A program made the position numbers and the translations under genes. A DNA stretch of 5,265 nt from a bacterium (GTDB lineage: Bacteria > ARS69). The first letter of the stretch is position 1. Every line of letters starts with the position of its first letter. Shown piece by piece: positions 335 to 4,679 of the stretch. The DNA is taken from positions 1 to 5,265 of the forward strand of contig JALGZO010000613.1 of the NCBI GenBank assembly GCA_025774865.1. The letters are read 5' to 3'. Under the pieces are notes generated by a model. The model did not search any database. It was given only the letters and a program-made list of their open reading frames with translations, and was not told the DNA's origin.

Positions 335-3300
335 TCAGAAGCTCAGCGTGATGCCGAGCTGGACACGTCGTCCGGCCCGACGCATCGCCTCGTCCACCCC
401 GTCGATCCGCATCCCGTCGCCCCGCGCCTCGTTGTATACCAGGTACGTGTCGTCGTCGAACAGATTGAAAACCTCGAGCGACAGTCTGATGACCAGGCGG
501 TTCCCGGCGCTGATATCGCGGGCGATCTTCGCGTCGACCGTCCACATCGACGCGTTGCGCTGATCGTTGCGACGACCGGTCGGATAGAACAGCCGCGGGA
601 CCGGCACGGTATCAACGGACGGACCACGATGAACCAGACCGCTTTCGAGCAAGGAGTACGGCAGACCGGATTCCCAGCGCAGTGCGCCTCCGAGCCTGAA
701 TCCCCACGGTGTGATGCTCGTTGCCCGGACCGTGAACAGGTGTCGCTGGTCGCCCGCCTGATGGCCCGGCGTCACGTCGATCCGGTTGCGCTCGTCCCCG
801 GCCAGAGGGTCGAACGTCGTGGCCGTGCCCTCGAGCTCGGAATAGGTGTAGGAGGCCTGCATCTCCCAGCTGCGATACTGGCGCCGGATCCACTCCAGCA
901 CGAGTGCCCGGTAGTTCATCGACTCCAGGTTGCCGACGAGCAGGACCTCGCCCCACGCAGGGTCGAGGACGGCATCGCCACCGTCGTGGTTCAGGTCGAC
1001 GTGCCCGAGCTGGCTCCGGTAGCGCCGGTCGACCAGACGGACGACGAGCTTGGTTTCGGTCAAGATCTCGTGCTCGAACCCGGCAGTCCACTCATCGTGG
1101 TGAGGCGTTTGCAGATCGCGATCCACGATCTGTACGTTCGGACGTGGTTCACCCTGGGCCGGCTCACCGGTCGCACCGATCCCGTCCGGCACGACGGTAT
1201 CGAACGTCACGGGCTCCGATTCGATCGTGGCGAGCCCCGGATGCAGCCGACCGTGGTATCGCCGGGCGGACAACCACAGCTTGGTTCTGCCTCTGGACCA
1301 GGGGTCCCAGCTGACACCCACGAACGGCGCAAGGCGCGTGTCCGCGATGGCGAGGTCCTCGGGCCTCCGGGTCCAGCCCGCCTCGACCACGCCGCCCGTG
1401 CTCGACGAGACGAACCCTCGGCCACGGAGCTCCGTTCGCTCCAGGCGAAGGCCGACGGTCACCGCCAGATTCGAGATCGGTTTGATCTGATCCTCGGCGT
1501 AGAGTCCCCAGTACGCGGACGCGGCGCGGCTCTCATGGATCGACTGCGGTGCGATGCGTGCCGCCAGTAACTCTCGGCTCCCGCCATCGTCGACCGTACG
1601 AATCAATGTCGGGCCGCGTTTCATGCGGCGCCCGAACTGCTCGTCCTCGATCACGGCACCGAGTGCGAGTTGGTGGTCGGCGCCGATCGAGCGCCCCGCG
1701 TAGATCGTCGCATCCACCTGAAGCGACACGCGGCGGTCGTCCTGATCGCGTATCAGGTAGGCCGGACCGGAGACCCTGTGTGCAAGCAGATCCAGACACT
1801 GAAGTCCTGAATGCTCGGCATCCGTCCCCGCGACACAGGCGTTCGTTGCCTCGGGCCGATCCGCGCGCGTTTCGTAGGACCTTGCCTGATAGGCCAGAAC
1901 CGTCTCGACGAGGATCCTCGGGGAAGATGGCATCGTCCACGTAAGCGCGTAGCGCGGGCCCCCGCTGGTGATCGAGCTCGCGCTGTCCGGACCGATCCAC
2001 GAGCTCACGCCCACACGGCTCATCGAGAGATCTTCACGCGCGAACTCGAACGCCAGCTTGTTGCGAGGCGAGACCTGCCATGTCAGACGATCGGAGTGCG
2101 CCGAGGCCTCTGTCGGGACGGCCTGCAGGCTCGACGTGGTATTGACCGGATCGTCGCGCCGTGTCCCGTCGTGCGCCATGCGAAACCAGAGACGGTCTTT
2201 GATGAGGGGGCCGGAGAACAGAAATCCCGCTCGATACCCATCGAAGACGAGATCCTCGTCCCTGGCGTTGCCGTCGAAGGCGTGCGATCCGTATCGGACC
2301 TCGAACACGCCCTCGAGCATGTTGCTACCTTGCTTCTGAATGATGGGGGCGAATCCGCCCTGGGCCCGGCTGAATTCGACTCCAGCCCCGGATCTGATGA
2401 TTTTCATCTCCGCGATCGAGTTCGTTGACATGCTGGCGATGACTCGACCGACCAGCGGATCGACATTAGATACACCGCCGACGACCACCTCGAAGTCACG
2501 GCTTCGCGACCCGTGAACATTCGCACTCCCGCCGGCGCCAGCGTCCTGTACACCCGGAGCCAGCGTTAGCACGTTCTCGTAGAAGCGGCCGGGCACGGGG
2601 AGGTCTTGAATGAACTCGTCGGTGAACCGGGTGGTCTGCGCCGTACTTTCGAGATCGACGACATCGGACGTCGCGGTCACGCGGACGCGTTCCGTGACCG
2701 GTTGACCGGTGGCGAGCTTCACCAGCATCGCGGGAAGGACTTCGGCCTCCTTCGCCATCTTCTCGGCGAGTCCCAGGGGCAAGGGCACGGCCTGCTCGAT
2801 GCGATACCACGAGTCGGACGAGTTGACCCGCGAGGAGTAGTCGACGGCCACGAATGATGTATACGGACTCATCAGGCGGTAGCTCAGCGCCAGATCGGTT
2901 ACCCTTTCGCGCACCTCCGACTGGGACAGTCCGGAGGTCGGCAACAGCAGGGCCTTGATCCGGTGCCGCGCCCACACCGAGGCCAGGGCGGCGTGAGAAT
3001 CTGCGTGATCCGGAAGAACCACGGGAAGCTCCTGTTCCCAGTACTCCCCGCCAAGATAGCCGCGGGCAGTGATCGTGCCTTCGGCCGCATGGTCGTAACG
3101 CCCGATCAGGTACAGGTTGTGCCCGGAGAACAGATCCATCGGACGGTCCGGGACCAGATCGCGGATCGGCAGTCCGCCCCAGTCGAACTCGATGTCCGTG
3201 AGATACGGCCGAGTGACCCACTGCTCGAACCGTTCGAGTGCGCGCCAGTGGTCATTGTCGTCCGGGATGAACGTGTAGGCGCCGCCTCCCACCTCGGCCA

Positions 3301-4636
3301 TTCGATCTAGCAGGAAGTGATTGACCGAGCCGCCGATGCCGATCGTGAAGACCCGATACGACTCGGGAAGCCGGCTGACCGCCTCGATGATCTCCGACTC
3401 GTTTCCGATGTAGCCGTCGGTCAGGAAGATGATCTGCCGAAAACGACCTGGCTCCCCTTCTATTTCGAGGGCCTTCTCCAGCCCGCGAAGCATCTCCGTA
3501 CCACGGCCTCCTCTCAGCTTTTCGATCCATTGCTCGGCTCTCCGGATCTCTTGGGGTTGGTTCGGCAGCAGGTGTGTCGAGAAGGTCTTGGATGTGCTGT
3601 CGAAGCGAACGAGATTGAACCGGTCCCGGTCGCCGAGCGAATGAAGGGCGTCCCTGACGAACCGCTTGGACACCTCGATCGGAAGGCCACCCATGCTTCC
3701 CGAGGTGTCCAGCACCATGACCACGTCCCTGGGAGCGGCCTCCCCGGCGTCGATCAGACCCTTGGGTTGGACGAGAATCGTGAAGAAGCCCTCGTCCCCG
3801 GAACGGTGCGTCAGTGTACCGAGGGCCGGTCGTTCGCTGCCGACGTTCCAGCGCACGACGAAGTCCTTGTTCGGGATGCTGGAGGCCTCGGCCAGATCGA
3901 CCACGGCCTTCGTGGGATGGGTTCGGCGGACGTAGATCGTTTGATTGGGACTGACGACGTCGTCGAGCGGCACGCCGGCATCGATCTCGACGTGGACGGC
4001 AACGTCGTGGCCCGAGCGCTGGCCGGCCCCGAGTCGACGCGGCGTGACCACCGGATCCGGCCTCGCGACCCCGGGATCGACCCCCGGGTTGTAGCGGGGC
4101 CCGACGACCAACGGGAAGACGTACTGGTAGACCCCATCGGTGTACTCGAGTAGTTCGACCGTGCGGATCCGTATCCGGATTTCGTCGCCCGGCATGAGAT
4201 TAGCGATGGTCTGGACGAAGATGTTCGGCCGCTGCTGCTCGAGCAACGCCGCCTGATATCCCTCGTCGCGCGCCTCCTCGTAGATGCGTCGGGCCTCCTC
4301 GCGACGATGGATCTCACCGCGAATGACCTGGCTTCCGCAGTGCATCTCGAAATCGTCAACAGCAGCATCGTCGCCGAGCGGAAAGGTGTAGGTGACCTCG
4401 ATGGGATGTGAGAACGGGTTGTCGAATACTTGCTCGACGATCGTGCGCGCGACGAAGGACGTGATCTCGACCTTCACATCGGTGTGACGCAGGGGCAGTT
4501 CGACGACGCCGTGGTACTGGTCCACGGTCCGCAGAGCGCCCGGGGTCGACGGTTCCGCGATCGTCGTGTCGGCCAACGTTCCGCCGGACATGAGGACGAC
4601 CGCCAGCATCAGCGAAGCGTGGAGGTGGATGTTCAT
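335..4636 (-). CDS. VIT-VWA domain / TonB-dependent outer-membrane receptor fusion protein, 1433 aa
   Basis: One intact frame encodes 1433 residues. Start: the frame opens further upstream (first ATG at 4744), but I chose the ATG at 4634-4636. It has a GGGAGG Shine-Dalgarno site 7 bases upstream, and it begins a plausible signal peptide (residues 1-22, hydrophobic core LMLAVVLM, likely cut after GGTLA). The n-region has His but no Lys or Arg, which is slightly unusual. Domains in order: VIT, about 40-184; VWA, about 303-475, with MIDAS residues D310-x-S312-x-S314, T380 and D407; the VIT-VWA family tail, about 476-620, with DLFSGHNLYLIGRY, WARHRIKALL and MSPYTSFVAVDYSSRV; a TonB-box-like ERVRVTAT at 649-656; plug, about 657-771; beta-barrel, about 772-1433, ending LGITLSF with the C-terminal Phe expected for BAM-dependent insertion. 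The VIT-VWA part should sit in the periplasm and the barrel in the outer membrane. The transported ligand cannot be told from sequence. Alternative: a bacterial VIT-VWA protein and a receptor joined by an assembly error; the smooth, in-frame, well-formed junction argues against this. Confidence 0.93.
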   Translation of the reverse strand: MNIHLHASLMLAVVLMSGGTLADTTIAEPSTPGALRTVDQYHGVVELPLRHTDVKVEITSFVARTIVEQVFDNPFSHPIEVTYTFPLGDDAAVDDFEMHCGSQVIRGEIHRREEARRIYEEARDEGYQAALLEQQRPNIFVQTIANLMPGDEIRIRIRTVELLEYTDGVYQYVFPLVVGPRYNPGVDPGVARPDPVVTPRRLGAGQRSGHDVAVHVEIDAGVPLDDVVSPNQTIYVRRTHPTKAVVDLAEASSIPNKDFVVRWNVGSERPALGTLTHRSGDEGFFTILVQPKGLIDAGEAAPRDVVMVLDTSGSMGGLPIEVSKRFVRDALHSLGDRDRFNLVRFDSTSKTFSTHLLPNQPQEIRRAEQWIEKLRGGRGTEMLRGLEKALEIEGEPGRFRQIIFLTDGYIGNESEIIEAVSRLPESYRVFTIGIGGSVNHFLLDRMAEVGGGAYTFIPDDNDHWRALERFEQWVTRPYLTDIEFDWGGLPIRDLVPDRPMDLFSGHNLYLIGRYDHAAEGTITARGYLGGEYWEQELPVVLPDHADSHAALASVWARHRIKALLLPTSGLSQSEVRERVTDLALSYRLMSPYTSFVAVDYSSRVNSSDSWYRIEQAVPLPLGLAEKMAKEAEVLPAMLVKLATGQPVTERVRVTATSDVVDLESTAQTTRFTDEFIQDLPVPGRFYENVLTLAPGVQDAGAGGSANVHGSRSRDFEVVVGGVSNVDPLVGRVIASMSTNSIAEMKIIRSGAGVEFSRAQGGFAPIIQKQGSNMLEGVFEVRYGSHAFDGNARDEDLVFDGYRAGFLFSGPLIKDRLWFRMAHDGTRRDDPVNTTSSLQAVPTEASAHSDRLTWQVSPRNKLAFEFAREDLSMSRVGVSSWIGPDSASSITSGGPRYALTWTMPSSPRILVETVLAYQARSYETRADRPEATNACVAGTDAEHSGLQCLDLLAHRVSGPAYLIRDQDDRRVSLQVDATIYAGRSIGADHQLALGAVIEDEQFGRRMKRGPTLIRTVDDGGSRELLAARIAPQSIHESRAASAYWGLYAEDQIKPISNLAVTVGLRLERTELRGRGFVSSSTGGVVEAGWTRRPEDLAIADTRLAPFVGVSWDPWSRGRTKLWLSARRYHGRLHPGLATIESEPVTFDTVVPDGIGATGEPAQGEPRPNVQIVDRDLQTPHHDEWTAGFEHEILTETKLVVRLVDRRYRSQLGHVDLNHDGGDAVLDPAWGEVLLVGNLESMNYRALVLEWIRRQYRSWEMQASYTYSELEGTATTFDPLAGDERNRIDVTPGHQAGDQRHLFTVRATSITPWGFRLGGALRWESGLPYSLLESGLVHRGPSVDTVPVPRLFYPTGRRNDQRNASMWTVDAKIARDISAGNRLVIRLSLEVFNLFDDDTYLVYNEARGDGMRIDGVDEAMRRAGRRVQLGITLSF
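2324..2692 (-). other. Domain: TonB-box-like segment and plug (residues about 649-771)
   Basis: Residues 649-656 (ERVRVTAT) resemble the TonB-box or plug-entry segment 'EEVVVTA' seen before the plug in Oar-like receptors. The plug follows with TRFTDEFIQDLPVPGRFYENV, LTLAPGVQDAG, NVHGSRSRDFEVVVGGVSNVD, IAEMKIIRSGAGVEFSRAQGG and IIQKQGSN. These are the standard conserved blocks of a TonB-dependent receptor plug. The order periplasmic domain, TonB box, plug, barrel is the same as in FecA-type transducers, but here the domain in front is VIT-VWA. I see no carboxypeptidase-regulatory-like domain, which usually occupies this position in Oar-like proteins. Confidence 0.85.
2822..4540 (-). other. Domain: VIT-VWA module (residues about 33-605) of the fusion protein
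   Basis: The VIT part starts near ALRTVDQYHGVVELPLRHTDV. It carries the family signature of a strand pair with FDNPFSHPIEVTYTFPL, then GEIHRREEARRIYEEARDEG and LLEQQRPNIFVQTIANLMPG. The VWA part opens with DVVMVLDTSGSM (DxSxS at nt 3695-3709), then GGRGTEM with T380 and IIFLTDG with D407. All five residues expected for metal coordination in a MIDAS site are therefore present. The stretch after the VWA fold, ending about MSPYTSFVAVDY, is the usual tail of bacterial VIT-VWA proteins and is complete. VIT-VWA proteins are related to the inter-alpha-trypsin inhibitor heavy chains; bacterial members are generally exported or surface-linked and poorly characterised. There is one Cys (C100), so no disulfide inside this module. 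What it binds cannot be read from sequence. Confidence 0.9.
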
Positions 4637-4640
4637 CGAG

Positions 4641-4679
4641 AAGCCTCCCGTGGTGTCGGCGCGATGCGCGCGGAGGCTT
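4641..4679 (-). promoter_or_regulatory. Inverted repeat in the 5' leader that would sequester the Shine-Dalgarno site
   Basis: A perfect 8-bp inverted repeat: AAGCCTCC at 4641-4648 and GGAGGCTT at 4672-4679, separated by 23 bases. In the mRNA the upstream arm AAGCCUCC can pair with the downstream arm GGAGGCUU, which contains the core of the ribosome binding site. The loop itself contains a short GC palindrome (gcgc-gat-gcgc, 4659-4669) that could stack inside. If the transcript starts upstream of 4679, this hairpin would compete with ribosome binding. The repeat and its overlap with the SD are seen directly; the regulatory effect is inference, since the transcription start is not known. A weak -10-like TACAAA (4678-4683) would put the start inside the repeat and abolish the hairpin. 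Confidence 0.4.
4644..4649 (-). promoter_or_regulatory. Ribosome binding site GGGAGG of the VIT-VWA/receptor gene
   Basis: On the coding strand the bases are GGGAGG, then a 7-base spacer CTTCTCG, then the ATG at 4636-4634. This strong site at near-ideal spacing decides the start: 4636 rather than the upstream in-frame ATG at 4744, and it agrees with the signal peptide starting at the same Met. Its GGAGG core is one arm of the inverted repeat at 4641-4679. Confidence 0.8.

Follow-up and report, generated by a model that had tools for sequence, protein, structure and literature searches.

How does a VIT-VWA module come to sit at the N-terminus of a TonB-dependent receptor, and what might it do there? 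The gene that raises this question lies on the window, by which we mean the whole stretch of DNA analyzed here, 5265 bases that make up an entire contig (C617) of a metagenome bin. An earlier note had read the gene as one frame running through a signal peptide, a VIT-VWA module, a TonB-box-like segment, a plug and a barrel, and the open reading frame, Pfam, plug homology and structural models confirm this layout (Table 1). The frame is single and uninterrupted, and its N-terminus reads by eye as a cleavable signal peptide. The Pfam search that the note had proposed bears it out for VIT, VWA and the TonB-receptor barrel, all of which score over their cut-offs, but not for the plug: the Pfam Plug model has no match on the window protein, while free receptors of the same type as its receptor half do reach the cut-off of that model.

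Table 1. Features of the window, with residue numbers referring to the fusion protein.
Feature	Position	Strand	Basis or remark
VIT-VWA::TonB-dependent receptor fusion gene	335..4636	minus	one open frame, 4636 to 335; 1433 aa + stop (translation)
GGGAGG, ribosome-binding-site-like motif	4644..4649	minus	7 nt upstream of the ATG at 4636 (sequence)
Signal peptide, residues 1-22 (MNIHLHASLMLAVVLMSGGTLA/D)	4571..4636	minus	read by eye from the sequence
VIT domain, residues 49-158	4163..4492	minus	PF08487, E 4.9e-33; AlphaFold2 model and Foldseek to ITIH1
VWA domain, residues 304-456	3269..3727	minus	PF13768 (VWA_3), E 7.8e-21; PF00092, E 6.9e-14
MIDAS D310-x-S312-x-S314	3695..3709	minus	sequence; invariant in 29-row alignment
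Further MIDAS ligands T380 and D407	3497-3499 (T380); 3416-3418 (D407)	minus	sequence
End of VIT-VWA unit and short linker, residues 606-647	2696..2821	minus	alignment to stand-alone VIT-VWA proteins; model pLDDT
TonB-box-like segment ERVRVTA, residues 649-655, start of receptor half	2672..2692	minus	aligned to free receptor L252 (ERVRVVSTADVVDIE)
Plug domain, about residues 649-772	2321..2692	minus	homology and blastp matches to free receptors
Outer-membrane beta barrel, about residues 773-1433, ends in Phe	338..2320	minus	Pfam; AlphaFold2 and Foldseek
RhlE-like DEAD-box helicase, C-terminal end, cut by contig end	4955..5263	minus	frame; named by motif reading
Metallophosphoesterase-like protein, C-terminal end, cut by contig end	3..299	plus	frame; named by motif reading (..THGDNHEF..)

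The N-terminal half has a VIT domain followed by a VWA domain with a complete MIDAS, the arrangement that defines a VIT-VWA (ITIH-like) protein, and all five MIDAS residues (D310, S312, S314, T380 and D407) are intact and are invariant across 29 relatives. The chain was modeled with AlphaFold2 as two overlapping halves, residues 24–850 and 600–1433. In the first of these the VIT-VWA unit is predicted confidently, with most blocks near 90 pLDDT, while the plug is modeled without confidence; pLDDT is below 50 from the start of the linker at about residue 606, and stand-alone VIT-VWA proteins align with the window protein up to about residue 625. A Foldseek search with the VIT-VWA model returns human ITIH1 as the top solved match (6fpy; E 2.2e-37, 19% identity), and PilB, LapA and integrins are also among the structural matches. 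The NCBIfam model TIGR03788 aligns to residues 52–627 with an E-value of 8.9e-135; membership in that family was rejected, as the score of 450.5 bits lies below the cut-off of 551.65 and the C-terminus is a barrel without a sorting signal.

The first residues of the receptor half, ERVRVTATSDVVDLE, align to the TonB-box segment of free receptors such as L252. Over 186 columns the plug is 58% identical to that of a free receptor, and on this homology we take a plug to be present, its AlphaFold2 model being poor in both halves. The barrel is modeled well in residues 600–1433 and has two Pfam matches over cut-off, PF25183 (OMP_b-brl_4; residues 850–1312, E 3.1e-21) and PF00593 (TonB_dep_Rec_b-barrel; E 5.4e-9). 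Its Foldseek matches are FusA, PqqU/YddB, Fiu, PfeA, FpvA and FhuA, with E-values from 1.5e-25. The chain terminates in ...GITLSF, with a final Phe as in outer-membrane barrels, and the domain agrees with the 22 strands and aromatic last residue of a TonB-dependent receptor barrel, the strand number being approximate.

Comparison with free receptors indicates what the VIT-VWA module replaces. The free relatives of the window barrel are of the SusC/Oar type with a CarboxypepD_reg extension, and two of them (L252 and L275) carry CarboxypepD_reg (PF13620) where the window protein and a second fusion, L106, carry VIT-VWA; all four align from the TonB-box segment onward. Pfam finds no CarboxypepD_reg before the plug of the window protein, nor a match to STN (PF07660) at E up to 1. 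As judged from these alignments, VIT-VWA in the window protein and L106 stands in for the signal peptide and CarboxypepD_reg together, just before the TonB box, and the earlier proposal that a MIDAS-bearing domain occupies the N-terminal slot of the receptor holds up. N-terminal domains of such receptors sit in the periplasm beside the TonB box, and since the receptor N-terminus faces the periplasm, the VIT-VWA module would lie there too, next to the box. A domain at this position can be important, since deletion of the N-terminal (carboxypeptidase-like) extension of Bt1763 abolishes growth on levan (PMC7782687).

The best matches of the helicase flank are 61–67% identical in the acidobacterial class of genome G752 versus 49–51% in the bin's own genome and phylum, and the bin holds another helicase of the RhlE-like kind. 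The metallophosphoesterase-like flank matches at 56–68% in the class of G752, with none in the bin's own phylum, and the VIT-VWA half shares 54% identity with a protein of that class, the best figure in the bin's phylum being 44%. The contig is probably acidobacterial and mis-binned, with horizontal transfer as the alternative. An assembly chimera of a VIT-VWA gene and a receptor gene must also be weighed, as the bin consists of 785 contigs with 8.3% contamination, the window is just 5265 bases long, and a plug stretch is common to both kinds of gene among the relatives. We consider a chimera scarcely credible, however. The plugs in VIT-VWA relatives (see below) are about 33–46% identical to that of the window, too low to mislead an assembler; GC3 is even along the gene (0.81 in VIT-VWA, 0.76 in the linker and plug, 0.80 in the barrel); the join falls in frame between domains; and two other proteins, L231 and L106 (the latter on a 252 kb contig), have the same architecture. 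Given the even GC3, the between-domain join and the recurrence on a 252 kb contig, either chance or chimeric assembly is very unlikely to lie behind the fusion.

The earlier note had proposed that recurrence in independent genomes would mark the fusion as a real family, and that it would fall if all close homologs were two separate genes; that is not the case, as full fusions occur elsewhere. A scan of named genomes found L106, a protein of 1740 aa in Acidobacteria bacterium 13_1_20CM_3_53_8, and a survey of 396 genomes of the same phylum found L231 (1651 aa) in another acidobacterial genome, as well as L222, whose frame leaves its contig within the first part of the barrel. In every complete fusion the open frame is long, a VWA domain is present, the C-terminus is that of a barrel and the join falls cleanly between domains. 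The fusion was not found in the five genomes of the bin's own phylum, which hold stand-alone VIT-VWA proteins only, nor in 195 genomes of another phylum (read as Myxococcota) with many VIT-VWA proteins, nor in a broad sample of 386 genomes, and a second fusion was not found among 38 genomes of the class to which L231 belongs. Four proteins from the set of 195 genomes (L071, L072, L074 and L075) have long frames and were rejected as receptor fusions.

In a tree built from 77 VIT-VWA units, each of the four full fusions occupies a place of its own; four changes are required, all of them forced by well-supported branches, and the window clusters with L238, L242 and L243. In the plug tree, in which few branches are strongly supported, the window plug is placed amid free receptors from its class, and L106 and L231 group with free receptors encoded in their respective genomes, a single one in the case of L106. 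The L106 genome also holds both parent types, a free receptor that is 58% identical and a stand-alone VIT-VWA protein that is 75% identical. Because the fusion plugs appear to derive from different free receptors, it is well supported on sequence grounds that the fusion arose at least three times, and L222 would make a fourth. On the VIT-VWA tree alone, a single old origin followed by many losses would be an admissible reading, but the nearest relatives of the plugs and the intact parent genes in the L106 genome speak against it.

Among the 41 genomes of the class of G752, many VIT-VWA proteins hold a partial plug without a barrel. There are about eight such proteins (L223, L224, L227, L237, L238, L242, L243 and L248, with L224 cut by a contig end), including the three nearest relatives of the window; their plug remnants have HMM E-values of about 1e-36 to 1e-11, with none in reversed controls. 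The window plug is closer to those of free receptors than to these remnants. Two histories would fit: repeated loss of barrels, or capture of plugs with barrels joined on at a later stage. The full fusion may be short-lived, as the closest relatives of the window have lost the barrel or never had it. In L238, L242 and L243 a shared helical-looking domain (..LADLAEDGRLSPS..LAALLGAQ..) follows the plug remnant in the place of the barrel. The remnants raise the possibility that the fusions are by-products, formed when remnant plugs recombine with free receptor genes, and then tolerated without function until they decay. The remnants themselves, the likeness of the window plug to free receptors and the promiscuity of VIT-VWA tails fit such a history, yet we regard it as distinctly improbable: the complete fusions keep their frames, VWA domain, barrel C-terminus and clean join, at least three cases are independent, and the L106 genome also retains a stand-alone VIT-VWA protein.

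VIT-VWA proteins are present in many bacterial phyla, and it is true, as the earlier note had stated, that they are mostly separate exported proteins; the picture is richer, however, with tails fused to many modules. Among 139 non-redundant VIT-VWA tails, the commonest Pfam family is TonB_C (12/139; best E 4.7e-14), and OmpA and DUF4159 are found on four each and STN and Plug on two each. With a local TonB_C model, 24 tails match at E-values no higher than 0.0015 and reversed controls give no match, and VIT-VWA proteins with a C-terminal TonB domain occur in several phyla (L062, L043, L042, L172, L215, L128 and others). Ankyrin, PDZ and collagen-like modules are found on tails as well, and the VIT-VWA tail is a promiscuous fusion slot. 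At the other end, zf-HC2 is present on seven of 62 N-terminal extensions and CarboxypepD_reg on four. The zf-HC2-like anti-sigma zinc finger stands at the start of L043, L042, L055, L052, L053, L217 and L226, and several of these proteins have an apparent membrane helix after it. Although the tails are varied, such fusions would place VIT-VWA at the periplasmic side of TonB-type and anti-sigma systems, and those of stand-alone proteins to TonB_C, STN and zf-HC2 favor a partner-binding or signaling role for VIT-VWA.

Other members of the family have features of their own. A small C-terminal domain without a name (KAEIQVWLTDKSPE..LKELGFEVVLDPKTGKLVIGRLPIEKL..) recurs in many acidobacterial VIT-VWA proteins, among them L115, L111, L127 and L239. 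The 1284-aa VIT-VWA protein L034:2351-6202 (G000:C544) has about 500 C-terminal residues without a Pfam match and an N-terminal part that may be FecR-like, judging by eye. A stand-alone VIT-VWA gene of the bin (G000:C154; L040, L001) is split over two frames, 14981–16171 and 14499–14966, and appears to carry a frameshift, real or sequencing-derived.

We favor, with a rough probability of 0.5, the reading that VIT-VWA is a metal-dependent docking module that couples a partner to the TonB-driven receptor; in broader terms, TonB-type systems probably use VIT-VWA as a module for docking proteins in the periplasm. The periplasmic VIT-VWA unit, placed at the TonB box, would dock a protein via its metal site, which a single mutation can disable, and so bring to the receptor a partner from the periplasm or the inner membrane. 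The likeliest partner would be a component of the TonB or anti-sigma apparatus, since other VIT-VWA proteins are fused to those very parts. The pull of TonB on the box and plug would be coupled to the docked partner, so that import is controlled or energized, or the state of the receptor is passed on. Docking is harder to reconcile with the unrelated modules on VIT-VWA tails, the weak link to neighboring sigma-factor genes, the barrel-less closest relatives of the window and the low confidence of the plug model. A bolder and doubtful extension is that VIT-VWA is a general but so far unrecognized periplasmic part of trans-envelope systems, both TonB and anti-sigma, and a MIDAS-based counterpart of STN whose contacts carry state or force between the membranes. 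If so, it would be found on the receptor side in the fusion, on the TonB side in VIT-VWA-TonB_C proteins and on the anti-sigma side in zf-HC2-TM-VIT-VWA proteins.

The STN domain of TonB receptors contacts an anti-sigma factor, and signaling of the FecA type is one rival to docking, with VIT-VWA as a stand-in for STN that contacts an inner-membrane anti-sigma factor upon substrate binding and frees an ECF sigma factor. Proteins of the zf-HC2-TM-VIT-VWA kind would be candidate anti-sigma factors, some of the zf-HC2 extensions belonging to proteins with TonB_C, e.g., L043. The tails of L097 and L174 have weak STN and Secretin_N matches, below curated cut-offs, which may represent a secretin-type fusion, and some loci have sigma or anti-sigma genes beside VIT-VWA genes. 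Overall, however, the neighborhood signal is weak: Sigma70_r2 neighbors of VIT-VWA genes number 4 of 116, which we rejected as proof of a sigma-factor link, and a large-ORF map shows no recognizable sigma-factor gene beside the L106 or L231 fusion. The contig has no FecI/FecR-like or other sigma or anti-sigma gene, although 5.3 kb is too little sequence to be informative on this point. STN is absent from the window protein, and we judge FecA-type signaling unlikely.

The module might instead be a tether that binds peptidoglycan-associated or other envelope proteins and anchors the receptor, with no part in signaling or transport. VWA units are adhesive elsewhere, e.g., in PilB, LapA and integrins, which are among the structural matches, and OmpA, a peptidoglycan-binding domain, is present on tails; TonB_C is three times commoner there, and a swap placed exactly at the TonB box suggests that the module is coupled to the energized end of the receptor, which makes a pure tether quite unlikely.

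The earlier note knew of no functional description of this architecture, and we likewise found none for VIT-VWA with a TonB-dependent receptor in the open-access literature, although domain-architecture databases may list the arrangement. Von Willebrand domains go unmentioned in a 2024 review of TonB-dependent transporters (PMC11658791), and we found no tested function for bacterial VIT-VWA proteins in the literature. The fusion ties this widespread family to the TonB import and signaling machinery, and its independent origins, together with the frequent TonB_C fusions, give a concrete idea of where VIT-VWA proteins work.

The closest known systems each share part of this design. Human ITIH1 (inter-alpha-inhibitor heavy chain 1; 6fpy) has the same VIT-VWA fold, but it is eukaryotic and secreted and has no receptor. 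The TIGR03788 family, named marine proteobacterial sortase target, shares VIT-VWA, whereas the window protein ends in a barrel rather than a sorting signal. Inner-membrane vWA "force transducers" have been proposed to work with TolQ/ExbB-type motors (PMC12204202); those proteins are attached to the inner membrane, the vWA domain replaces the TonB C-terminal domain, and neither VIT nor a fusion to an outer-membrane receptor is described. We rejected the window protein as a transducer of this type, as its N-terminus reads as a cleavable signal peptide instead of a membrane helix and lacks the SHLS motif. Like the window protein, the FecA, FpvA and FoxA transducers have an additional domain in the periplasm ahead of the TonB box, but theirs is STN, and no sigma/anti-sigma pair is seen in the short window. 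Receptors of the SusC/Oar type (PF13620/PF13715) share the plug, the barrel, the TonB-box region and an extra periplasmic domain before the TonB box, which in their case is an Ig-like domain of about 80 residues; the VIT-VWA unit of the window protein spans about 600 residues and includes a MIDAS. For TonB-dependent receptors, STN and the carboxypeptidase-like domain are joined by a further type of N-terminal periplasmic domain.
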